NCBI RefSeq assembly: GCF_003813965.1
Contig: NZ_CP033896.1
Span: 496,001-560,000 of the forward strand
DNA: 64,000 nucleotides
From: Corynebacterium choanae
GTDB taxonomy: Bacteria > Actinomycetota > Actinomycetes > Mycobacteriales > Mycobacteriaceae
Reading direction: 5' to 3'
Shown here: positions 43,767-56,553 of the stretch, in pieces
Numbering within the stretch: position 1 is the first letter of the stretch
Layout: every line of letters begins with the position of its first letter
Translations under genes and position numbers: made by a program
Notes under the pieces: model-generated
Seen by the model: only the letters and a program-made list of their open reading frames with translations
Database searches by the model: none
What the model was told of the DNA's origin: nothing

Positions 43767-44214
43767 TTCTCCCGCCCTGCGGGTGCGATCAGGGTTGGCT
43801 TGTACCGCGGGTGCGTTGCACGCGACCCGGCCACGGTGCGCATGTCTGAGTTGCCGATAGGCGGCTGTCCGCAACAGGTCTGATACGCGAACATTGTTTA
43901 AGTGGGGGTGCGAAACCCCACGAGGTGCCGCACCGCAATGTGGGGAAAGCTGCCCCTTTATTGGGGTATTTGGGGTGTCTTGAACTTGGGAGATGTGAAA
44001 ACTTGCGCAACTTGCTCGCAGGCCATACACGGGGTTCGCTAGTCTTTCCCATGGAGTGAGACAGTCGTCGCTAGGCGGCGGGGTTGTCCGAACTCTTCGA
44101 ACGTATCTGTCGCGGATTCTTGGCTGCCAGCTTCATGTTTTAGAGGCACCAAGGTGGGGCGATGGGGCGAGCTATATCAGTGTTAGTTCTATTCACCTTT
44201 TGAGGAGTCACATC
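43767..44214. other. Intergenic before the GNAT gene
   Basis: About 450 bases; no gene seen. Confidence 0.4.
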
Positions 44215-44508
44215 ATGGCTGATAGCAACATCACGGTGAGCTTTGACGAGCAGCAGCATCGGTATTATCTTTCCGTCGACGACAAGGCCGCGGCCTATGT
44301 GCAATTCGTGGCGGAAGATGGGGTGTGGGACCTGCAACACACCGTCGTGGATCCGTCCTTCCGCGGGCAAGGTCTGTCCAAGCAGCTGATTGCGGCGGTG
44401 CTTGAGGAGGCTCGGGCAAAGTCGGTGAAGGTGAAGCCAACATGTTCCGCGGTGGCCGGGTTCATTGAGAAGAATGAGCAGTACGCTGACCTCGTCGCAG
44501 CAGAGTAA
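44215..44508 (+). CDS. Small GNAT-type N-acetyltransferase (97 aa)
   Basis: Short YjdJ-like (GCN5-related, N-acetyltransf_CG type) protein. AYVQFVAEDGVWDLQHTVVD is followed by the acetyl-CoA loop PSFRGQGLSKQLIAAVLEEA and CSAVAGFIEKNEQYADLV, which contains a conserved Cys-Ser pair. These minimal acetyltransferases use acetyl-CoA; substrates are mostly unknown. ATG at 44215 has GAGGAG eight bases before. It converges with cysE. In C. glutamicum a similar gene lies beside cysE (from memory). Confidence 0.9.
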   Translation: MADSNITVSFDEQQHRYYLSVDDKAAAYVQFVAEDGVWDLQHTVVDPSFRGQGLSKQLIAAVLEEARAKSVKVKPTCSAVAGFIEKNEQYADLVAAE

Positions 44509-44628
44509 TACATCACTACCTTGGTTTCCGCCCAGGACTCGGTATCGCCGCAGCTGGTGATCAAGAGCCCTGGGCGTTGGTGTTTCCTCGGGGGTTGAGG
44601 ATTGTGTTGCTTTTGCGGCAGGCAAGGT

Positions 44629-45231
44629 CTAGCTGTACAGCCCGTCACTAGCAGGCTTATTCCGGTGAATATAGAAGTCCGGGTCGACGAGTTTCTTGCA
44701 CTCTTCCGTTTTGCGTGGCCGATTCACCGCGGGAATCCCTACCGCAATATGGTTTGGTGGCACATCTTTCGTTACCACCGCATTCGCCCCGATCGCAGAA
44801 CCGCAGCCAATCGTGATAGGGCCTAACACTTTGGCACCTGCCCCAACGGTGACGTTGTCTTCCAAAGTGGGGTGGCGTTTGGTTTGGGTGAGCACCTGAC
44901 CACCCAATGTCACCCCGTGGTAGAGCATCACCCCGTCGCCGATCTCAGCGGTTTCCCCGATGACCACACCCATGCCATGATCGATAAAGAAGCGACGGCC
45001 AATTGTTGCCCCGGGATGGATTTCAATTCCGGTGAGGAACCGAGTTGCTTGCGCCAATATGCGGGCAGGTCCTTTCATGCCGCGCACCCAGAGCCAGTGC
45101 GCAACCCGATGCGACCAAATCGCATGCAGCCCGGAATATACGATGGCGTTTTCCATATCGCCGCGGGCAGCCGGATCGTGGGCGCGGGCGTTGACGAGAT
45201 CTTCCCGCATGGTCTGCAAAACTCGGAACAT
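44629..45231 (-). CDS. cysE: Serine O-acetyltransferase CysE (200 aa)
   Basis: Makes O-acetylserine from serine and acetyl-CoA, the carbon acceptor for sulfide. After a helical N-terminus come the left-handed hexapeptide repeats: [43 protein letters not shown], and [16 protein letters not shown]. The DHG and HGVTLGG segments hold the active-site His and Asp. It is the short EpsC-like type. ATG at 45231 is preferred; an in-frame TTG at 45249 is possible. It lies downstream of cysK on the same strand, 382 bases away. Confidence 0.95.
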
Positions 45232-45249
45232 ACTTTCAAACAGTACCAA

Positions 45250-45613
45250 CGGCTGCGGCTGCAGGAGCTATTGGGCGGTCTTGCCGGGGAGCAAGGTGAA
45301 AGCTATGGGACTGCAATGGTCGACCATTTGCGGCATAAGTCGGTGCGGAGTAAACCAGCACAACGCCGACGTGCGGCCACCTTGTCGCAGGAAGATGGTG
45401 GGCGCCCGTCGGCGTCATGTTGGCAGTTTCGTCAGTGCCGGCGGAAAGCAGGCTTGCGCAAAACACTTGTTCACACCGTGTCTACTCGGCGTTGCCGCAG
45501 TCAGTGGGTAAAGCCTTGTGCCCACCGGGTCGCGGCGAGTTGTTGCTCTGTGCCTTCGCCGTTCGGCGTCGAAGTTGTTCGGCTACGCGTCTTCGTAGTG
45601 CTGAACCGGCCGT
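45250..45613. other. cysK-cysE intergenic
   Basis: About 360 bases, no gene seen. No clear second McbR-type site found. Confidence 0.4.
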
Positions 45614-46549
45614 CTAGTTGCGAATATCGTCGTAGAGCACTGTGGAAACATAGCGCTCACCATAGTCGCACACCACGGTGACGATGGTTTTGCCCCGATT
45701 TTCTTCCAGCTTCGCAAGCTCAAGGGCGGCGTGCACATTCGCGCCGGTAGAAATACCGCCGAGGATCGCCTCCGTGGAGCCGAGTTTCCTCGAGGTGGCA
45801 ATCGCATCTTCACTACTCACCGCAATAACGTCGGTCAACAGTGAGCGATCGAGATTTTCCGGCACAAAGTTGGCACCCAACCCTTGAATCTTGTGCGGAC
45901 CTGCTTTGCCGGTGGTCAACAGGGCAGATTCGGCCGGCTCCACTGCGTAAAGTGCAATATTTGGATTGTGTTCCTTTAAGAATTTGCCCGCCCCGGAGAT
46001 GGTGCCACCGGTGCCGACCCCGGCGACGAAAATATCGACTTTGCCGTCGGTGTCTTCCCAAATCTCAGGACCGGTGGTGGCGTAGTGAAATTTCGGATTT
46101 GCTTCATTGGCAAATTGGTTGGCCAATATTGCACCCGGACGCTGGGCGACGATCTCATTGGCTTTATCCACCGCGCCCTGCATTCCCGCTGAACCGGGGG
46201 TGAGGATAATCTCTGCCCCGTAGGCGCGCAGCATCACCCGGCGTTCTAAGGACATGGTCTCCGGCATAGTGAGCACCACATTGTAGCCGCGGGCGGTAGC
46301 GACCATGGTCAAAGCAATACCTGTGTTGCCGGAGGTGGCCTCCACAATAGTGCCGCCAGGTTTGAGATCGCCTGCTTGTTCGGCTGCATCAATAATCGCC
46401 AAACCGATGCGGTCTTTCACCGAGTGAGCCGGGTTGAAGGATTCCAGCTTCACCAGCACGTCAGCTGCAAGCCCTTCGGTAAGTTTATTAAGCCGAACTA
46501 GCGGGGTGCCGCCAATAGTTTCGGTGATGGACTGATAGATACGGGACAT
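45614..46549 (-). CDS. cysK: Cysteine synthase CysK (311 aa)
   Basis: PLP enzyme joining O-acetylserine and sulfide to cysteine. PLP lysine K45 in NPAHSVKDRIG, the substrate loop TSGNTG (72-77), the phosphate cup VGTGGTISG, and PHKIQGLGANFVPENLD are all canonical. ATG at 46549 with AAGGAG upstream. A perfect TAGAC-N6-GTCTA operator 195 bases before the start suggests repression by McbR, as for cysK in C. glutamicum. Confidence 0.97.
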   Translation of the reverse strand: MSRIYQSITETIGGTPLVRLNKLTEGLAADVLVKLESFNPAHSVKDRIGLAIIDAAEQAGDLKPGGTIVEATSGNTGIALTMVATARGYNVVLTMPETMSLERRVMLRAYGAEIILTPGSAGMQGAVDKANEIVAQRPGAILANQFANEANPKFHYATTGPEIWEDTDGKVDIFVAGVGTGGTISGAGKFLKEHNPNIALYAVEPAESALLTTGKAGPHKIQGLGANFVPENLDRSLLTDVIAVSSEDAIATSRKLGSTEAILGGISTGANVHAALELAKLEENRGKTIVTVVCDYGERYVSTVLYDDIRN

Positions 46550-46743
46550 GGCTACTCCTTTTTCATCGCAGCGCGCTGACTGGCAGCTGTAGTTTGCTGC
46601 TGATAGTCGTCGCGCACCAGCTGTGATGTATGCGTTTTCTTCATAGGACAGTTCGTGGTGTGCAGCGATTTATGCTTTGGGAATCGGATACCCGTCGTGC
46701 ACACTGCTGGCGCTAACGCTAGCACAGGATTTGAACCGTCTAG

Positions 46744-46759
46744 TAGACTGTGCTGTCTA
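46744..46759 (-). promoter_or_regulatory. McbR-type operator upstream of cysK
   Basis: TAGAC-TGTGCT-GTCTA is an exact match to the TAGAC-N6-GTCTA consensus known for McbR, the methionine/cysteine repressor of C. glutamicum. A TAGTAGAC/GTCTA overlap directly beside it (GTCTAGTAGAC) extends the palindromic character. Confidence 0.8.
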
Positions 46760-47053
46760 TATTTTCCGTGGTAGTGCAGGCAGCAGCGGCTTTTCGCTGC
46801 AAGATCTTCGCGGCGTTTTTTTACACAATTCGATGTGTTCCTGAGCATCATCGCAAGGACTTGGAGCAGGAGATCGTCTCCCAAACCGATCCTCGATGGC
46901 GCCGGGAATCCCTTAGGCGCTAGGGGCGTCGAGTGCTGATTTATCCCGGCAGGGAAAGTTCTAGACAACAGCGTCCCTCGGGTTGGGGAAGGGTGGCGTT
47001 GGTCGGGGTGAGTATCGGCGGCATTGTGCAGGGAATCCGAGCCGGATTGCTAA

Positions 47054-47083
47054 TTGCCGTTGTTGCACCGCTGGTGCTATATT
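47054..47083 (+). promoter_or_regulatory. Predicted promoter upstream of cbiM
   Basis: TTGCCG (47054-47059) and TATATT (47078-47083) are 18 bases apart, with TGC before the -10. It would give a leader of about 560 bases before cbiM. In that leader GTCGCAG/CTGCGAC and CAGGCCCAA/TTGGG-TTT-GCCTG can pair. Confidence 0.5.
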
Positions 47084-47653
47084 CAACTAGGTAAACCAAC
47101 GCTTGGTCGCAGAGTGCCCTGCGACTGGTTTCGGCAACTACTACTCGACAACACTGCAGGTGCCGCTGCGGGGGATCGGGTCAGGCGAGCACCACACAAG
47201 CGCAGACAACCGTAAGCAGGCCCAAATGATCGGCTCGGCGGCGGTTGCTGCGAAGCTTGGGTTTGCCTGGTGCCGGATTAGCGATGGTGCTGCCGGATGC
47301 TACAGGAATCACTGAGCTGTACCGCCTGCGCAGGATAGGCTGCGGGGTGAACTGCTCGTGGTATTGATGTTGCGGCCGGCGGCGGCGATCCTTGGAGAGA
47401 GATCGGTAACAATTTATTGCACGGTTGTTGTACGGGCGAATAGGGCTACTGCTGTATCCCTTCCCCTGGTGTCGTGCCACCACCATGGCGTGTTGCCGCA
47501 GAGGAGAGCCAGCCTCTGCACCGGCATGCCGGGGGAGGGGAGATACCGCGCTGCCCTGAACACCACTGTGATATCTACCAGTTCCCTGCTTTCTGGTGGA
47601 TCTTGGCAGTGACGCAGAATCCATTCATATTCCGAGTTTTCCCAAGGATCATT

Positions 47654-48355
47654 ATGCATATTGCGGAAGCATTCCTACCCGCCAGCCACTGTGTTGCGTG
47701 GGGTGTTGCGGCTGCCCCGTTTGTGGTGCACGGCGCTGTGGCGGTGAAGAAACAAATCAGCAAACAGCCAGAAACTTCCCTGTTGTTGGCTGCCGCAGGC
47801 GCCTTTAGTTTCGTGCTGTCGGCCATCAAAATCCCGTCGGTGACAGGTTCTTGTAGCCATCCGACTGGTACCGGTTTGGGGGCGGTGCTGTTCAAACCGC
47901 CGGTGATGGCGTTTATGGGCGGTATAGTGCTGCTGTTTCAGGCGCTGCTCTTACAGCACGGCGGGTTGACCACCTTAGGGGCAAATATTTTCTCCATGGC
48001 GATCGTCGGTCCGTGGGCTGGCTATGGGGCTTGGCTGCTTGCCCGCAAACTGGGGGCATCCTTTGATGTCGCTATTTTCGCGGCGGCATTCTTCTCTGAT
48101 CTGCTCACCTATGTCACCACCGCATTGCAGTTAGCGGCCGCACATCATGCGGTGGGTTTTGTGCGTTCCGCGGTCACCTTCCTGGCCATGTTTGGCCCCA
48201 CCCAACTGCCGCTGGCGGTCATCGAGTCGATTGTGACAGTGCTGATTTTCCGGATGCTGCGCCAAGTCGCCGCCCCTGAACTGCGGATGCTCGGCTTTGT
48301 CCGGCGCCCCACCACGGACGAAACCGAATCCGCCCCAGTAGTCGTCAATTCTTAA
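47654..48355 (+). CDS. cbiM: Cobalt ECF transporter S component CbiM (233 aa)
   Basis: Substrate-binding membrane subunit of a cobalt importer. It starts MHIAEAFLP; Met1-His2 of this family bind the metal, so the ATG at 47654 (AAGGA upstream) is certain. [16 protein letters not shown] supplies further metal and fold residues, and several membrane segments follow. A nickel-specific role (NikM) is less likely because the neighbours include a CbiN-like protein and B12 genes lie nearby. First of four cbi genes on this strand, with gaps of 220-280 bases between them. Confidence 0.94.
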
Positions 48356-48595
48356 AAACCCACCGCATGTAGGGGCTGTGCAACCCGGTGCTGCGCTGGG
48401 GTGGTGTGCCGCTAGCGGCGTGGAGTGGTTCGACACGTCTGTACCTGTTCCCCTTGGAAACAGGGGGGTGGCGTAGTCCACGCGTTGGCGTTGTTGCCCA
48501 CCCTCCACCCACCTTAGGTGCCCTGTCGGCGGGTTCGTTGCCGCTGAAATCTGCCCTTACAGTGATGCTGTCATCCATGCCTGAAGGATAAATCT

Positions 48596-49006
48596 ATGTC
48601 TGCGAATAATGCTGTGTTCCCCACCAATCAACCCGCTGTGCCAAACCAGCAGGCGCAGCCAGCTGCTCCTGATCCGAAAACCGTCGACTCTGGTGAACGG
48701 CATTCGATCGGTTCGACGATAGCCCTGATTCTGGTGGCGTTAGCGTTGGCAGGGTTGCCACTGTTTTACAATTTGGCTGACCCTAATTCGGAAGAACAAT
48801 TCGCCGGAACAGATTCCACGGCCGAACAGGTCGTAGAAGAGGTCGCCCCCGGCTATGAGCCGTGGTTTGAACCGATCACCCCAGAACTCGCCCCAGAGGT
48901 GGAATCCGGACTGTTTGCTTTGCAGGCAGCGTTAGGTGCCGGGGTGTTAGGTTATGTGCTGGGTGTGTATCGTGGCCGCAGCCGTACAGTCAAACGCCGC
49001 AACTAG
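48596..49006 (+). CDS. cbiN: Cobalt transporter accessory protein CbiN (136 aa)
   Basis: Auxiliary membrane protein that pairs with CbiM to load cobalt. Two membrane spans flank an extracellular loop: IALILVALALAGLPLFYNLA, then GTDSTAEQVVEEVAPGYEPW, the typical CbiN loop (FxGTDxxA...I...P.Y.PW), then FALQAALGAGVLGYVLG. About 40 Gln/Pro/Ala-rich residues precede the first span, more than usual. ATG at 48596 follows GAAGGATAAAT. Confidence 0.92.
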   Translation: MSANNAVFPTNQPAVPNQQAQPAAPDPKTVDSGERHSIGSTIALILVALALAGLPLFYNLADPNSEEQFAGTDSTAEQVVEEVAPGYEPWFEPITPELAPEVESGLFALQAALGAGVLGYVLGVYRGRSRTVKRRN

Positions 49007-49282
49007 GCGGGCTTAGCGGTAGTCCCCACTGCGGCGGTGAACGCTCACAGGTTGAGTGAAGGTCTGCCTGGTTTCTAGGTGGCCGGCTACGGTAGGAATC
49101 AGTAGCCCAAGCTGGTGGCATGCGGTGAAACAGCCTTCATAGGTGTTTGCCTGTGACGCTGCTCTTACCTGGGTGGCGGGAGCACAGCGTTCCACCCCTG
49201 GGAGGGCTGTGCCGCCGGCTGGGGCTGCTCCAGGTGCGGCGCAGGCTGTTTGACAAACAATGAGAAGCGATGAGGTAGACGG

Positions 49283-50050
49283 ATGCGATCCCTGGAATTG
49301 GCGGCGGCGCGCAACCGGTTTGCGCATGCCCCCGTCGGGGAGAAACTCGTCGCCCTGCTTTTGGTATTCAGTGGGGTGTTGCTGCTGCCGCCGCTGCCAA
49401 CGCTGCCGCTGCTTGCGGGTGTTGTGCTTCTTACCGCCTTCCACGCCCGGGTGCCGTGGCGGCTTTATGGGGCGATGATTATCGCCCCCGCCAGTTTCCT
49501 CATCCCCGGGCTGATCCCGCTAGTGGTCACCTTCGATCACAGTGGGCTGCTGCTCATCGAAGGGGGTCTAGTTACTGCCGCAACAGTGCTTGCCCGCTCC
49601 ACAGTGGCGATGAGTGCAACTATGCTGTTTGCCCTGACCACCCCGATGAGTGAACAACTGATGTTCGCCCGCAAACTGCACCTTCCCGACTTTGCGGTGC
49701 ATATGGCGATGCTCACCTACACGATGATTGGATCGTTGGTCACCACCGCCCAAGCGATGCTGTTTGCGCAATCCTCCCGGCTCGGATTCCGCAATCGTCG
49801 CCGGTGGATTGCCAGCAGCGCCGCGCAGGCCGCCAGCCTATTTGTGGTCGCCTTTGCTCGGGCGCGTCGCCTCCAGGAAGGACTCGAGTTACGTGCCGAT
49901 CCGACAGCCCTTGCCACCGGTCGCACCCAGGTTGCTACCGCCTCCAGCCGCCCGAGTCGAATCGTCGCTTTACTCGTTGCGGCGCTGATAATCGTCGGTG
50001 TTTCCTGGTTTACTACCGGCAACTGGATTGACCCCGGCAGCAGGTGGTAG
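49283..50050 (+). CDS. cbiQ: Cobalt ECF transporter T component CbiQ (255 aa)
   Basis: Transmembrane coupling subunit between CbiMN and the ATPase. Hydrophobic segments such as LVALLLVFSGVLLLPPLP and MIIAPASFLIPGLIPLVV alternate with loops. The Ala-Arg-Arg-rich coupling helix is seen in SSRLGFRNRRR and FARARRLQEGLELR. ATG at 49283 is taken from its position before the first conserved residues (SLELAAARNRFAHAPVGEKL). Confidence 0.9.
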   Translation: MRSLELAAARNRFAHAPVGEKLVALLLVFSGVLLLPPLPTLPLLAGVVLLTAFHARVPWRLYGAMIIAPASFLIPGLIPLVVTFDHSGLLLIEGGLVTAATVLARSTVAMSATMLFALTTPMSEQLMFARKLHLPDFAVHMAMLTYTMIGSLVTTAQAMLFAQSSRLGFRNRRRWIASSAAQAASLFVVAFARARRLQEGLELRADPTALATGRTQVATASSRPSRIVALLVAALIIVGVSWFTTGNWIDPGSRW

Positions 50051-50270
50051 CCGATGCACACCAACCCCCAGCAGGTGGATCCGGTCACAAAATCCCCCGT
50101 CTTACCACGCTGCGCCGACAGCGGTGGTGTCGGCTGGGGTGCACACGAACCATGAACCGCAGCGATAGGAGCAGGGAAATTGCCGCCTAAACGGGCTTCA
50201 TCCCGGCGGCAGCATCAACGGCACACGAAGAAGTTCACGACGCAACATAAAAGGATTGGTGGTTGACATC

Positions 50271-51122
50271 ATGGGTGATACTGAACCGGCAACCCAGCCG
50301 CCCACCGCGGCATGCCTCCGCGCAGTAGGCATCTCCTTTGCCCACGAACCCCACCATCCCATCCTGCACGACTGTTCACTGGCGGTCTATCCCGGCGAAA
50401 TCATTGCCCTTTTAGGGGCAAACGGCTCCGGGAAATCAACCCTGCTCAAACTCCTCGCCGGGGCGTGGCGTCCCGCCACCGGCCACGTGGAACGGCACGG
50501 CACCCCGCTGGACTACAGTCGCAAAGGCCGCGACCAGCACCGGCAAGCAGTGCAGCTGGTACTCCAAGAACCCGATGATCAAATCTTTGCGGTTTCCGTT
50601 GCCGCCGATGTCGCATTCGGTCCGACCAATCTTGAACTAGACCCGGACACCATTGCACAACGAGTGGCGTGGGCAATGGAAGCCTGCGAAATCACTGATC
50701 TGGCGCGCCGGGTACCTCATCAACTCTCCTACGGGCAGCGGAAACGAGTTGCCCTCGCTGGGGCGTTGGCCATGCAACCATCCGTGCTCCTCCTCGACGA
50801 GCCCACTGCCGGACTTGACCCGGCCGGGGCAAGACAGCTGCTTGCAACAATCTCCCTGCAACGTGCCGCCGGGCGGGCAATCCTGCTCGCCACCCATGAG
50901 GTGGATACCGCCTGGGAGATAGCTGATCGGGTGGCGATTATGCATGAAGGCACTGTGCGAATCGGCCCTGCCCGCACCATGCTGCGGGATCAACAACTGC
51001 TCGCGGCTGCCCGGCTGGGTCAACCGTGGGCACCAATGGTCGAACAGCTCACCGGCACTACGATCACCAAGCCGGCGGATCTTGCCGCCTGGCTCGCCGC
51101 CAACCAGCCCCCCCTCGGCTGA
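50271..51122 (+). CDS. cbiO: Cobalt ECF transporter ATPase CbiO (283 aa)
   Basis: Energy-coupling ATPase. Walker A LLGANGSGKSTLL, Q-loop LVLQEPDDQIF (the DDQ form typical of ECF ATPases), signature LSYGQRKRVALAG, Walker B VLLLDEPTAGLDP and switch ATHEVDT are all present. ATG at 50271 is preferred, with GGTGG about eight bases before; GTG at 50259 is an alternative. Some 30 C-terminal residues extend past the ABC fold. Only one ATPase is present, so it would act as a homodimer. Last gene of the cobalt transporter. Confidence 0.93.
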   Translation: MGDTEPATQPPTAACLRAVGISFAHEPHHPILHDCSLAVYPGEIIALLGANGSGKSTLLKLLAGAWRPATGHVERHGTPLDYSRKGRDQHRQAVQLVLQEPDDQIFAVSVAADVAFGPTNLELDPDTIAQRVAWAMEACEITDLARRVPHQLSYGQRKRVALAGALAMQPSVLLLDEPTAGLDPAGARQLLATISLQRAAGRAILLATHEVDTAWEIADRVAIMHEGTVRIGPARTMLRDQQLLAAARLGQPWAPMVEQLTGTTITKPADLAAWLAANQPPLG

Positions 51123-52596
51123 ACAACATTAAAACAAGAACGCGGCAGCATCGCAGCAGTCATCGCCGCAAAAATAGGGCGCCACTGTAGTCATGCGGGA
51201 AGCCGCGGCGGCAACCGGAAAAGCCGCAACCTAGAGGAGTAGCAACAATACTTCGCGCCCTCTGTCATCGCCGCCGCAATAGCTCACAGCCTTTGAAAAA
51301 AGGAGATCGTCGAACCGGCTAAGGCAGTGTCCTTGCGAACCGCTAGGCCAGATAGTCAAGCGGGGCATAGTCTCAATGCAGGGAAAGAGCGTTCGGTTTC
51401 CCCGGTGGAACGTTTGGAGAAGCTGGCAAGCACCGGCGACCATCACCACCCACCAGCAACCGGGCATTGCTGCCAAAGGATCTTTGCCATCAATGCTTGC
51501 TGCCACTGGAAAAACAGCTAGATACGCTCACTGCGACACACCAGCCAAGTGGTACGCGGTTGGAGAGAAGGCTTACGGGCAGTACGCGGCGGCGAACATC
51601 ACTGTGCAAAGCAAACCTTTACGCAGTGACATTTTTTCGCGCAACCGCAAAACCCGCACCACATGGAGTGTGTCCAGCAAGCATCACAGCGGTGCTCCCT
51701 GGTGGGGTAGCTGCCTTCCACGAAAATACGCGGATGGCAGCGGTGATGGTTGCGCCGGTGAAGTGTTTCCGCCTCCCACGCAGCCCCCCACGAAGGAGGA
51801 AGCGACAGGAATGCTCAAGATTTCTGGAAAACATGCCCGATTGTGCCGATCGAACACTCCCTGAGATCTTGCCGAAAACCAGCATCCGCCCCAGCAGGGG
51901 GAATGACTGCTTCTTGCTGCACACCAGCTATTTCTCAACCAGGTGGGGGAGGAACCACGAACAGCACCCGCAGTGCATCGCAAAACAGCCAGCAGACGAG
52001 ATGTTCAGCATGAAGGCGATGGCGTTGTTCGGCGGAGCCGGTTTGCGGTAGGGAATAAACCCTGCAACCGAAGCTGCCGCGACAGAGCAAAGCGCCGACA
52101 GTTTCACCACAGCTACCTGGATAGTCCAGGGTAAACCCGGGAACCGGGGTGGTGAACACCATCGACGCGGAAACGTTGTGCGAAGCGCTGCAACACACCA
52201 TCAGCAACAGGAAATACCAGCAGCAGCTGCGCCAACCAACCCCCTTGCTGGCGCATGGCAAACAGCGTGCTCGGGGTGCCGCCCGAGTGCTGCGGTAGCC
52301 ATGAATCAACAAGATGGTTACCGCCGCAATCACCAACTGGCCTTCACGCATTACACCGTGAAAGGCTGCACGCTGACAATATTGATTGCACCGACCCACC
52401 GAGAATCCACGCCCGTGGTGCCTCACCCAGTAGCAATGCGCATTCCTCAGCCGGTGCCAGGAACTCGCTGGTTGCTACCAGTGAGAGAAGCTGGTGCGAG
52501 AGCCAATCTTCCGCCCAGAATCCACCCATGATCGCATCACAAACGATGGCTGGGGTATTCCGCGCAGGACGATTCGGAAACCTCTTGCACAAGCAA

Positions 52597-52740
52597 CACA
52601 ACTGACAGGTATCGGACTTGTGGGCTGATGTATTCCCCGGCGTTTGGTGACGCCAGCGACAACCCCTTACCGTTGCGGGACAGTTCCGGTTTTGCACCGG
52701 ATTCCCTTATTTCACGCCGCCACGCACTGCCACACCACGG
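52597..52740 (-). promoter_or_regulatory. Cobalamin riboswitch
   Basis: On the minus strand the core reads AAGGGAATCCGGTGCAAAAC, then CCGGAACTGTCCCGCAACGG, then TAAGG. This is the conserved GGGAA...CCGGTG...CCGG...CCCGCAACGGTAA sequence of the adenosylcobalamin riboswitch. It is followed by a GGCGTcaccaaacGCC-type stem and the B12 box AAGTCCGATACCTGTC, like AAGCCCGAAGACCTGCC of E. coli btuB. All core parts are present. An AAGAGG ribosome-binding-like site lies about 25 bases past the box, but no intact gene follows. Confidence 0.9.
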
Positions 52741-53341
52741 TATATAAACCAGTGGTTATGCAGCTATTGTGCTGCTGTGGAAGCAACAGTGGCGACGACC
52801 AGTTGCACCGGTGATCCTACAACGAACCCGCCAGCTTGTGCAGTGCAATGTTGGCCATACCCCCAACTTCATACCCCCAATACTTGAGCCCACTTGGCAA
52901 ACTACCGCCGCATGAGATGCCGCATCTGGCATAGCTGGTGTCTGCAGCAGCGGCACGGTGCGGTGAAAGAGAACAGCTGGCATCCGCCCGAGTTGCAGCG
53001 ACCCGGTGAGGTGGGCTGTGGCGGGTGCTTCCACTAATGCTTGCAGGGGAAGGGCTGCGCCGGGTGAACTGTCGCATAGGGGAGTCGGCAGTGGGGCAAC
53101 GGGGATGCGCACTGTTGGGCAACTTGCGTGGAATTTGTCACAAAACCTGGCAATTGCAATGGTGTAAATCTGGGTCTCGGGTAGCTGTGCTCGGTGAGGA
53201 AACAAGGTGCTAACCGGCGTCGTGCAGGGGGTATTCCGAATCCCCCCACGGGGCTAGAAGGTGGATGGGGGCAAAATGGGCACCCAAGCGGGCAATGCCC
53301 CGATGAGCGTGTGGGATAAAAAACAGCGCAACCGCTAGATT

Positions 53342-53364
53342 ACCCCCATCTCAGCGGTTATACT
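53342..53364 (+). promoter_or_regulatory. Predicted ramA promoter with C-run
   Basis: TATACT (53359-53364) is a good -10; the -35 is weak. ACCCCC at 53342-53347 and several G4/C4 runs upstream (53220-53300) resemble the short C/G-run sites bound by RamA, which regulates its own gene in C. glutamicum. Confidence 0.4.
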
Positions 53365-53438
53365 GCCTAGCGAACGTAGTAACAATTGCCTGCCGGGTGT
53401 ACCTAGTCGGGTGGGCTGAGCTATAGAGGAAGAAGCAC

Positions 53439-54281
53439 GTGGACTCACAACGGATGAAGGATGACGACGATGCCATCCGCGAGGCATTGTCCTCGTTAAA
53501 GACCGCGACTGGTATTCCGGTGACCATGTTCGCCACCGTGCTTAACGACAACCGGTTGAAGATCAGCTCCTGGGTTGGACTGCGCACCCCCGCGCTGCAG
53601 AACCTGGTTATCGATTCCGGCTGTGGTGTCGGTGGACGGGTAGTCACCACCCGCCGCCCGGTCGGTGTGTCCGACTATGCACGCGCCAACGTGATCAGTC
53701 ACGAATACGACAACGCCATTCAAGATGAAGGGCTGTTTTCGATCGTGGGCGTGCCAGTCATCGTTCACCGGGAAATCCGCGGCGTGCTCTATGTGGGTGT
53801 GCATTCAGCGGTACGGCTCGGCGACAAAGTCATCGAAGAAGTCACGATGACTGCCCGTACCCTTGAACAGGAATTAGCTATCAATGCTGCAATGCGCCGC
53901 AGCGACATGACTCGTGCCCCGGGGGCGAAATCCGGCCGGGTGATGAACGGCGCTGAATGGGAACAAATCCGATCCACCCATTCCAAACTGCGGATGCTCG
54001 CCAACAAGGTCACCGATGAGGCGCTGCGGCAAGAATTAGAAGAGCTTTGTGATCAAATGGTCACCCCGGTGCGAGTAAAACAAACCACGAAGCTTTCCGC
54101 CCGCGAACTCGACGTGCTCGCCTGTGTGGCGCTTGGCCACACCAATGTGGAAGCCGCCGAAGAAATGGGGATCGGCGCGGAAACGGTGAAGTCGTATCTG
54201 CGCAGTGTTATGCGCAAACTTGGGGCACACACCCGCTATGAGGCAGTCAACGCTGCCCGCCGCATCGGTGCACTCCCTTAA
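53439..54281 (+). CDS. ramA: Acetate-metabolism regulator RamA (280 aa)
   Basis: LuxR-type transcription regulator controlling acetate and central carbon genes in corynebacteria. A GAF-like sensor domain covers about residues 15-145 (AIREALSSLKTATGIPVTMF, GVGGRVVTTRRPVGVSDYA, GVPVIVHREIRGVLYVG). The LuxR helix-turn-helix is at about 218-275: KLSARELDVLACVALGHTN, EMGIGAETVKSYLRSVMRKL. Start is GTG at 53439 with AGAGGAAG upstream. Length matches C. glutamicum RamA. The CoA-transferase gene in this window is a plausible target. Confidence 0.93.
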   Translation: MDSQRMKDDDDAIREALSSLKTATGIPVTMFATVLNDNRLKISSWVGLRTPALQNLVIDSGCGVGGRVVTTRRPVGVSDYARANVISHEYDNAIQDEGLFSIVGVPVIVHREIRGVLYVGVHSAVRLGDKVIEEVTMTARTLEQELAINAAMRRSDMTRAPGAKSGRVMNGAEWEQIRSTHSKLRMLANKVTDEALRQELEELCDQMVTPVRVKQTTKLSARELDVLACVALGHTNVEAAEEMGIGAETVKSYLRSVMRKLGAHTRYEAVNAARRIGALP

Positions 54282-54476
54282 AAAAGCAACCAATCCTGGT
54301 GCCTGCGGGGATGTTGCTGACCGCATCCAAGAGCAGGGACAACACTGAACCAATACTGCAACCCCTGAGGGGTGCTTTCCGGAGTTGAGTTATCCGGGCA
54401 GCACCCACCAGGGGTTGCGATCTACTAGCGGTGCAAAGCACCTGCGGGTTGGCGGCGAATCGGCACCTGAGCAGGT

Positions 54477-55070
54477 TTACTCGCTGGCGTCGCTATAGCC
54501 GCGACCTGATCCTGGCACCCACAACACATCGTTGCCGTCATTGACCACTCGGCCGATGATAAACAGCAGATCGGACAACCGGTTCAAATAGGCGGCCGGC
54601 AGCGTCGAAGTCGTTTCTGGGTGATCCGAAATCGCCTGCCAGGCAGCGCGCTCCGCGCGACGACACACAACCCGAGCCACATTGATATGGGCGGCCGCTG
54701 GTGTGCCACCTGGCAAAATGAACGAGTCAAGCTTGCCGAGCTGCTCGTTGAGCACGTCACAATCGGCCTCAAGCGCATCGATATAGCTTTGCGCCACCCG
54801 CAACGGTTCCCACTTTGGATTTTCTTCCACAGGTGTCGCGAGATCAGCCCCAGCATCAAACAGCTCGTTTTGTACCCGCTGCAATATTGCTCGCACCTGA
54901 TCGGGAATGCCATCGCAGGTCAACGCCACCCCGATATGGCAGTTGGTTTCCTCACAGTCGGCATACGCTGCCAGTCGTGAATCGGTTTTTGCCACCCGTT
55001 CAAAATTCGACAGGGCAGTCTCACCTTTGTCGCCGGTACGGGTATAGATTTTCGTCAAATGCACAGCCAT
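54477..55070 (-). CDS. pduO: ATP:cob(I)alamin adenosyltransferase, PduO type (197 aa)
   Basis: Attaches the adenosyl group to cobalamin. The N-terminal ATP loop [17 protein letters not shown], the helix with [11 protein letters not shown], and the C-terminal [10 protein letters not shown]...[14 protein letters not shown] are the PduO/CobO2-type signature. ATG at 55070 is the usual start. Convergent with ramA and divergent from murA, as in C. glutamicum from memory. Together with cbiMNQO it indicates use of cobalamin by the cell. Confidence 0.94.
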
Positions 55071-55281
55071 ACCTCACCAGCCTAGCGAAGAACCATTGCG
55101 CAAGCGGCAACAATTCCTGTTGCAGCGCGGTAGAACAATCCTTGCGCGTTGCGGTAAACCATCCCCTCGCGGCAACCGCAGACATGCTCGCTGCCACAGC
55201 AGCAAGACGGCCGCAGCTGGTTTCCGATCCGGTGAAAGTGAGCGGTGGGTATGCGGAAGCTTTGCGGTACCCTGGAAACCT

Positions 55282-56553
55282 GTGACCGGTAAACAACGTT
55301 TTCAAGTAGCAGGTGGCGCTAGGCTGCAAGGCTCTGTGCGGGTAAGCGGGGCAAAAAATAGTGTCCTGAAGTTGATGGCAGCGGCGTTGCTGGCAGAGGG
55401 CCGCACCGTATTGACGAATTGCCCAGAGATCCTCGATGTGCCGCTCATGGCAGAGGTGCTGCGCGGTCTTGGCGCGGAAGTAGCAATTGACGGTACCACT
55501 GTCACTATCGATGTGCCTGCCGCATTGGAATATCGAGCCGACTTTGACGCAGTGCGTCAATTCCGGGCAAGTGTTTGCGTGCTGGGGCCGCTGACTGCCC
55601 GCTGTGGCCAGGCAGTTGTGGCACTGCCTGGTGGGGATGCGATCGGTTCACGACCGTTGGATATGCACCAATCCGGGTTGGAGAAACTTGGGGCTACCAC
55701 CCGTATCGAACATGGTTGTGTTGTGGCACATGCACCTGCATTAACCGGCGGCCGAATTGATCTAGATTTTCCCAGTGTTGGCGCGACGGAAAATATTCTC
55801 ACCGCAGCAGTCCTCGCCGACGGGGTGACTATTCTTGACAACGCCGCTCGCGAGCCAGAAATCGTTGATCTTTGCCAGCTACTCACCGCGATGGGGGCAA
55901 AGATCACCGGTGCGGGATCGAACACCATCACCATTGAAGGGGTCGATAGTCTGCATCCCACTACCCATGCGGTGATCGGTGACCGCATAGTCGCCGGAAC
56001 CTGGGCATATGCAGCAGCAATCACACAAGGCGATGTGACGGTCGGAGGGATTTCCCCGAAACACCTGCATCTCCCGTTGGAAAAACTCAAGCTTGCCGGG
56101 GCATCGGTGGAAACCTACGAGCAAGGTTTCCGGGTAGTGATGAATGGCCGCCCACAGGCAGTGGATTATCAAACGCTGCCGTTTCCTGGTTTTCCCACTG
56201 ATCTGCAGCCGATGGCTATCGGGCTTGCCGCGGTCAGTGATGGATTGTCGATGATCACAGAAAACGTGTTTGAATCCCGCTTCCGGTTTGTCGATGAGAT
56301 GCAACGACTCGGTGCCGATGCTTCAGTGGACGGTCATCATGTTGCTATTCGCGGCACTACCGAATTGTCCTCGACCAGCGTGTGGTCATCAGATATTCGG
56401 GCAGGTGCCGGTCTCGTGCTGGCCGCACTCGCAGCCGACGGGGTCACCGAAGTGCACGATGTGTTCCACATTGACCGTGGCTATCCACACTTTGTTAAAC
56501 AGTTAGTTTCCCTTGGTGCTGATGTAAAGCGAGTAGGGGATGGCGCTGCATAG
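55282..56553 (+). CDS. murA: UDP-GlcNAc 1-carboxyvinyltransferase MurA (423 aa)
   Basis: First committed step of peptidoglycan synthesis: transfers enolpyruvate from PEP to UDP-GlcNAc. [19 protein letters not shown] holds the catalytic Lys25-Asn26. The loop [19 protein letters not shown] has Asp119 where E. coli has Cys115, the change that makes mycobacterial MurA insensitive to fosfomycin. [15 protein letters not shown] and HIDRGYPHF near the C-terminus are conserved. Start is GTG at 55282 (MTGKQRFQV); earlier codons give no family sequence. The rrn operon follows 1 kb downstream. Confidence 0.95.

Follow-up and report, generated by a model that had tools for sequence, protein, structure and literature searches.

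Riboswitches are normally read as gene leaders. The window analysed here, a stretch of 64,000 nucleotides from Corynebacterium choanae, holds a cobalamin riboswitch on its minus strand with no recognisable gene downstream on the same strand, where a cis-regulatory leader would have one, and this raises the question of what the element is and what it might control. The first-pass annotation had placed a complete B12 riboswitch at 52597..52740(-), and this was borne out, as the Rfam model RF00174 matched 52587-52750(-) with 51.4 bits against a gathering cut-off of 31.5 (E 6.5e-10). It is the sole RF00174 match in its 2,986,773-base single-contig genome among the 150 of 226 candidates that were scored. 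Core segments AGGGAATC, CTGTCCCGCAACGGTAA and GTCCGATACCTG are common to the window and Corynebacterium mendelii, and one position of the B12 box, a C at 13 of the 15 loci aligned, is U in the window and G in one relative (G224). A decaying aptamer was considered because Rfam marks mispairs in helix P2; it was dropped after two candidate P2 strands, GTGCAACTGG (52808-52799) and TCAGTTGTGT (52605-52596), were found to pair at 10 of 10 positions. The 5' boundary given by RF00174 is probably too short and the aptamer larger than the match, and we propose limits of 52596..52808(-) according to the RF00174 match, the P2 pairing and core identity. The RNA of the window is predicted to bind cobalamin.

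On one side, the riboswitch converges with a cobalt transporter operon on the plus strand, which comprises cbiO, encoding the ATPase (50256..51122; TIGR01166, 232.3 bits), cbiQ (49283..50050; TIGR02454, 116.8 bits), cbiN (48596..49006; NF002780, 102.9 bits, and PF02553) and the cbiM ORF (47474..48355; TIGR00123, 250.9 bits). The family match of this last ORF begins at residue 61, and its annotated start is probably about 60 codons early (47474-47650), the real one lying near 47651. On the other side, ramA (53439..54281(+); NF041673, 554 bits) is the divergent neighbour and served as synteny anchor, and a PduO-type cobalamin adenosyltransferase is encoded beyond it (54477..55070(-); TIGR00636, 163.3 bits, and PF01923). 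Curated models also named murA, cysK and cysE among the neighbours. Between the aptamer and the stop codon of the oppositely oriented cbiO lies a gene-free stretch (51123..52595(-)), which was examined by ORF, Pfam, coding and MetE searches. That these approximately 1.47 kb hold no recognisable gene, as had been noticed from the letters, was confirmed, since we found no gene, no coding signal and no metE remnant there. The best 60-codon coding score in the gap was 0.107, a value that 22 of 100 shuffles attained; none of the 10 ORFs in the vicinity had a Pfam match at a limit of E 10; and the DNA in common with 60 relatives at E ≤ 0.001 was the aptamer core only, in 12 of them. Permissive tblastn with 31 MetE proteins reached at best E 0.06 in the gap, on the opposite strand, and this candidate remnant was rejected.

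The nearest RamA among the matches listed is that of C. mendelii (93%), and we compared the two loci base by base. The aptamer core is identical at 83 of 95 positions (87.4%, shuffled 63.6%). The region upstream of ramA (65.7% versus 62.0% shuffled) and the gap (71.2% versus 70.5%) do not surpass the best shuffles, in a test that is blunt, as the last 300 nt of cbiO do not rise above shuffled sequence either (64.5% versus 62.5%). Local search returned the aptamer at 2e-15 and the end of cbiO at 1e-4, and pieces of the gap, the hairpin described below among them, at E ≥ 0.3. With a core at 87% and flanks that resemble shuffled sequence, the sensor has thus been conserved through the rewriting of its surroundings.

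We then asked whether the arrangement recurs in the genus. A scan of 242 genomes with RF00174 gave 74 genomes with a match at E ≤ 0.001, 69 of them with one above the cut-off, and 40 stretches, picked around riboswitches or ramA, were compared. In 15 species including that of the window, the riboswitch adjoins ramA, points away from it and has no recognisable gene behind it; we refer to these as orphans. A comparison with sister species, which the first-pass annotation had proposed, thus returned 14 other species with the gene-less form, three with a full-length metE behind the riboswitch at the same position (G121, G122 and G108), and one (G233) in which a 378-aa ORF there corresponds to the N-terminal half of MetE. 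The half-length ORF of G233 lies at L095:6921-8057(+), and a full-length metE is found elsewhere in that genome. On a short contig of G199 (L223), a riboswitch, the downstream strand and the start of metE occur together; the counts cover ramA-linked loci, and this fifth metE leader is not among them. Of the two groups of orphans, group I consists of the following (G000, the window; G157, C. mendelii; G023, G107, G081, G224, G070 and G196) and group II of seven others (G034, G065, G132, G064, G001, G223 and G138), of which G034, G065, G132 and G064 are near-copies of one another; the riboswitch positions of G132 and G064 were taken from the 242-genome scan. A tree of RamA, CysK and CysE rejected the orphans as one clade (p-AU 6.5e-5), on 48 chosen rows, with a quick method and with an orphan set defined by gene content when a first tree had already been seen.

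In 12 of the 15 orphans, the riboswitch faces cbiMNQO, on the opposite strand and pointing towards it; in G107, G081 and G224, cbiMNQO is missing from the locus and the riboswitch is followed by cysK on its own strand. In L078, L081, L082 and L088, five ORFs next to the riboswitch, 156-259 aa in length, had no Pfam match at a limit of E 10. Ten other sister gaps up to cbiO measure 155-495 nt, G157 being excepted. By the look of its sequence, a 457-aa ORF between riboswitch and cysK in G081 (L081:4197-5570(-)) is transposase-like. In G107, a GOLLD RNA (RF02032, 173.1 bits) is located at L080:12445-12877(-), approximately 4 kb beyond a tRNA cluster.

If the gaps of the orphans hold no gene, they do hold conserved RNA structure. 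In the window, a hairpin at 52268..52289(-), hereafter hairpin A, was recognised by motif scan and covariation; it has the stem CUCGGG/CCCGAG and a CGGCAC hexaloop, and is the only such hairpin with at least 5 pairs in the 64 kb on both strands. GCGGCAC occurs once per gap in all eight group I loci and in none of seven others (four of group II, three of metE type), and the chance expectation of the hairpin is 0.006 per shuffled gap. Its stem is paired at 97.5% versus 73.7% in shuffled alignments, with 10 cells changed on both sides versus 4.1. A short peptide encoded by ATGCCCGYGGAYAGG, conserved in the sisters, was considered and rejected, as the reading frames diverge at once by eye.

A second structure, the long-range helix P1, is formed by the strand GCCCGNGGANNGG and a distant arm in every orphan except the window (14 of 15). 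A T-rich stretch follows it in many orphans, and is weak in some (e.g., G107 and G001). In 12 of the 14 loci, at most 20 of 200 shuffles gave arms as good as those of P1; the arms of G196 (28/200) and G070 (130/200) are not rare alone. Across 10 sequences, 90.6% of cells pair (85.2% when shuffled, 29-51% when slid) and 12 cells are changed on both sides versus 5.4 in shuffles; further pair types are no more numerous than in shuffles, 141 of 500 having as many. From these 10 sequences we built a model, R1, with G070, G132, G064 and G157 left out of training. In the 242 genomes, R1 found 12 orphan loci at E < 1e-14 (the 10 training rows and two near-copies) and, at 2e-7, the metE leader of G233, which was outside training. 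Away from the ramA locus, nothing fell below 1e-6, and further matches were weaker than 1e-5; two weak ones there, in G076 (C18:948180-948227, E 3.8e-4) and G204 (C17:85641-85747, E 0.0023), are probably due to chance. Among five metE leaders, three, none of them used in training, scored 36.3, 25.4 and 25.4 bits, the latter two being those of G121 and G122, and L212 and L223 had no match; at E ≤ 1, R1 matched neither the metE leaders of G108 and G199 nor G157. G070 received 12.5 bits (E 0.18) despite its P1 arms, and G157 has such arms as well. For the window, R1 with filters off reached at best E 0.46, on the other strand, and 0.71 on the riboswitch strand, and a pattern search for P1 gave none inside the gap and 10 in the whole window, where 14.9 were expected. 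In searches of three sister loci, hairpin A, element B and P1 had no Rfam match at E ≤ 1.

The 5' strand of P1 may also contact the aptamer itself. In all four group II loci tested, its pairing with the B12 box is beaten or equalled by 0-2 of 34-44 comparison windows, and two of three metE leaders pass the same test (1/46, 4/37 and 19/43 windows reach the pairing). The pairing fails in seven of seven group I loci tested, where 15-47 of 65-237 windows reach it. Judged from base complementarity, the P1 5' strand can thus pair with the B12 box in group II and in two of three metE leaders, in an attenuator-like manner.

Upstream of the aptamer, a -10-like hexamer, TAGGAT, was recognised by sequence pattern at 52814..52819(-), 5 nt ahead of P2, with no -35 recognised. 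All 19 riboswitch loci linked to ramA have TANNNT 4-7 nt ahead of a P2 strand, in a survey of the 40 best P2 candidates per locus in which the hexamer of G107 goes with the second-best candidate. As a control, upstream DNA was shuffled (n = 200 per locus) and searched for a P2 of at least 8 pairs with a hexamer 4-6 nt before it; the combination was reached in 57 of 200 shuffles for the window, 35 of 200 for G070, and 1-19 of 200 for the remaining 17 loci. The pattern is convincing for the 19-locus set and weak for the window alone. We infer that the RNA would start at this hexamer before P2. No two-hexamer promoter was found in 50900-53450 (0.7 expected by chance), and the window gap has one weak terminator-like site, which is no more than chance.

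Where did such an RNA come from? The gene-less riboswitch is most likely descended from a riboswitch-metE leader from whose locus metE has gone. It belongs to the same aptamer family as the cobalamin leaders of metE, and in C. halotolerans and relatives metE comes after the riboswitch at the same position, with the downstream strand CCCGYGGACAGG in common (several of its bases are different in G108), whereas the 15 orphans have no recognisable gene there. Because metE is commonly found behind a riboswitch, we take loss of metE from the orphans as likelier than its gain by the others. The genome of the window has an intact metH (1406.8 bits), cobI/cbiL (193 bits) and no match for metE. In all, metE is without a match in seven of the 15 orphan genomes (G000, G023, G070, G107 and G196 being listed so, and G223 and G224 counted because the genomes listed with a match do not include them), and in the other eight it occurs at another place in the genome. 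Traces of MetE in the sister gaps, searched with filters off (31 MetE proteins, 12 gaps), were taken as GC-rich noise; they reached 0.002 in G196 (riboswitch strand, 24% over 92 aa), 0.004 in G224 (other strand) and 0.019 in G081, and the half-metE of G233 stood at 7.6e-102 in the same tblastn.

The suggestion that the window element is what survives of the control region of a degraded metE-like gene thus stands in one part, its origin, given metE or its N-terminal half behind the riboswitch in four species and a window genome with metH and without metE. It does not seem to stand in the other, that of a mere survivor, since the core is 87% identical, the flanks do no better than shuffled sequence and no metE remnant is left. 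An inactive, fading relic of a lost metE leader in the window species is rather unlikely in our judgement. The missing helix P1, the change in the B12 box and the want of a terminator or two-hexamer promoter above chance agree with it, together with the metE evidence just given. Against it, the core has been kept while its flanks have not, P2 and hairpin A persist in the window, and the gene-less form occurs in 14 further species of two groups, eight of which have metE elsewhere. We are fairly confident that a conserved, selected RNA is encoded here. That it is a complete B12 aptamer leading a non-coding RNA, likely a former metE leader, which has been kept at the ramA/cbiMNQO locus, is on balance the probable explanation overall, although the window has neither P1 nor a recognisable -35, a two-hexamer promoter or a terminator above chance.

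This putative non-coding RNA faces the cobalt importer. A permissive scan of 44000-56000 gave no further RF00174 match at E ≤ 5, so that the cbiM leader of the window is indeed free of a riboswitch, as had been remarked at the outset. This is an exception: 22 of 24 cbi transporter loci, which were chosen around riboswitches or ramA and not at random, have one there, one of them below the cut-off. All 24 have at least one riboswitch, with 14 carrying it both in the cbiM leader and on the ramA side, eight in the cbiM leader only (among them G148, below the cut-off at 27.5 bits, and G261, whose ramA is outside the stretch examined) and two, the window and C. mendelii, in convergent position only. 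In the sister group of the window species (L084, L085, L086 and L087, i.e., G067, G158, G178 and G148), the cbiM leader has a riboswitch and no convergent one occurs.

A comparable layout has been described in Listeria monocytogenes, where a B12 riboswitch controls AspocR, an antisense RNA to pocR (available part of PMC8079631). As far as that account goes, the likeness is that a non-coding RNA headed by a cobalamin aptamer runs against a B12-related gene and that B12 would shorten the RNA; this layout, on the opposite strand and pointing at a B12-related gene, is seen in the window and in 12 of the 15 orphans in all. The differences from AspocR as portrayed there lie in the genus, the RNA and the possible target, which is a cobalt transporter operon here and a regulator there, and three Corynebacterium species keep the RNA without the possible target cbiMNQO. 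A candidate counterpart of the AspocR terminator would be the long-range helix P1 in the sisters, where it ends the conserved RNA before cbiO; none was found in the window.

An antisense regulator running into cbiO, which the first-pass annotation had raised, is possible. By analogy with these Listeria RNAs, we would tentatively propose, as the likeliest mode, that B12 sets the distance over which the RNA extends towards and into the convergent cbiMNQO at its 3' end. The RNA would be made from the -10-like hexamer before P2, bind B12 and exert an effect. Because of the analogy with AspocR and Rli55, it would be expected to stay short with B12 and to become longer without it, in antisense or convergent orientation relative to cbiO. 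Since searches of the window gave no P1 and no terminator above chance, the transcript could run into cbiO. Two points stand against this mode. The RNA is kept in G107, G081 and G224, which lack the proposed target, and the logic is odd, as antisense RNA made at low B12 would work against cobalt import just when the vitamin is in short supply. A broader form of the proposal is that a metE leader turned into a stand-alone B12-responsive RNA in two groups, with P1 and the CGGCAC hairpin acting on the cobalt importer or on a target in trans; we regard this as plausible, if a little short of a reading we would lean towards.

EutX is a name for RNA of the Rli55 type. Rli55 is a non-coding RNA with a B12 riboswitch that sequesters EutV (PMC8079631, in the part available). 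A B12-controlled transcript of this sort, whose CGGCAC hairpin binds an mRNA or protein elsewhere and which does not act on cbiO, is an unlikely alternative. The RNA would resemble Rli55/EutX, so far as that partial account extends, in being a stand-alone B12 riboswitch RNA with downstream hairpins, and in all eight group I species, three of them without cbiMNQO, the loop of hairpin A is invariant and its stem covaries. On the other hand, the hairpin is absent from the four group II loci scanned, and, unlike Rli55/EutX as described there, it has a CGGCAC loop and a target that is hypothetical. The loop is presumably not of the ANTAR type, which also counts against this alternative. It is very improbable that the riboswitch serves cysK or another neighbour on its strand and that cbiMNQO was inserted later: cysK does lie downstream on the same strand in the three species that lack cbiMNQO, but cbiMNQO intervenes on the other strand in 12 of the 15 orphans, the transposase-like ORF does so in G081, and P1 would end the RNA before cysK. 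The suggested leader of a short unannotated protein is hardly credible, for the minus-strand ORFs of 117 and 163 aa have no Pfam match, none of 42 candidates scored is a homologue of the latter (51935-52426(-)) at E ≤ 1e-3, the gap lacks a coding signal, and DNA similarity to the 60 relatives at E ≤ 0.001 does not extend beyond the aptamer core.

The probable reading therefore remains that of an aptamer-led non-coding RNA, and related elements have been noted in the genus. C. amycolatum has three riboswitches, regulating cobalt transport and metE (accessible text of PMC11071462); similarly, five of the seven group II genomes have three RF00174 matches, and we would guess C. amycolatum to be a group II member. 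The accessible text of that account (PMC11071462) does not set apart any convergent copy that lacks a gene. For C. diphtheriae, two riboswitches are listed (PMC5784534, available portion), and riboswitches have been mapped in skin Corynebacterium (PMC9600381, likewise in part). In the literature covered, in which subscription journals are little represented and several sources are available in part, no description of a gene-less convergent cobalamin riboswitch in Corynebacterium was found.

If the reading is true, a B12 aptamer kept without a recognisable gene in 15 species of two separate groups would be an actinobacterial case beside the two from Listeria, and would offer a testable system for a leader turning into a free regulatory RNA. 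Furthermore, riboswitch surveys based on proximity could miscount the convergent copy as a leader of cobalt transport. In the window species, no B12 riboswitch besides the gene-less copy was found among the genome candidates scored (150 of 226).
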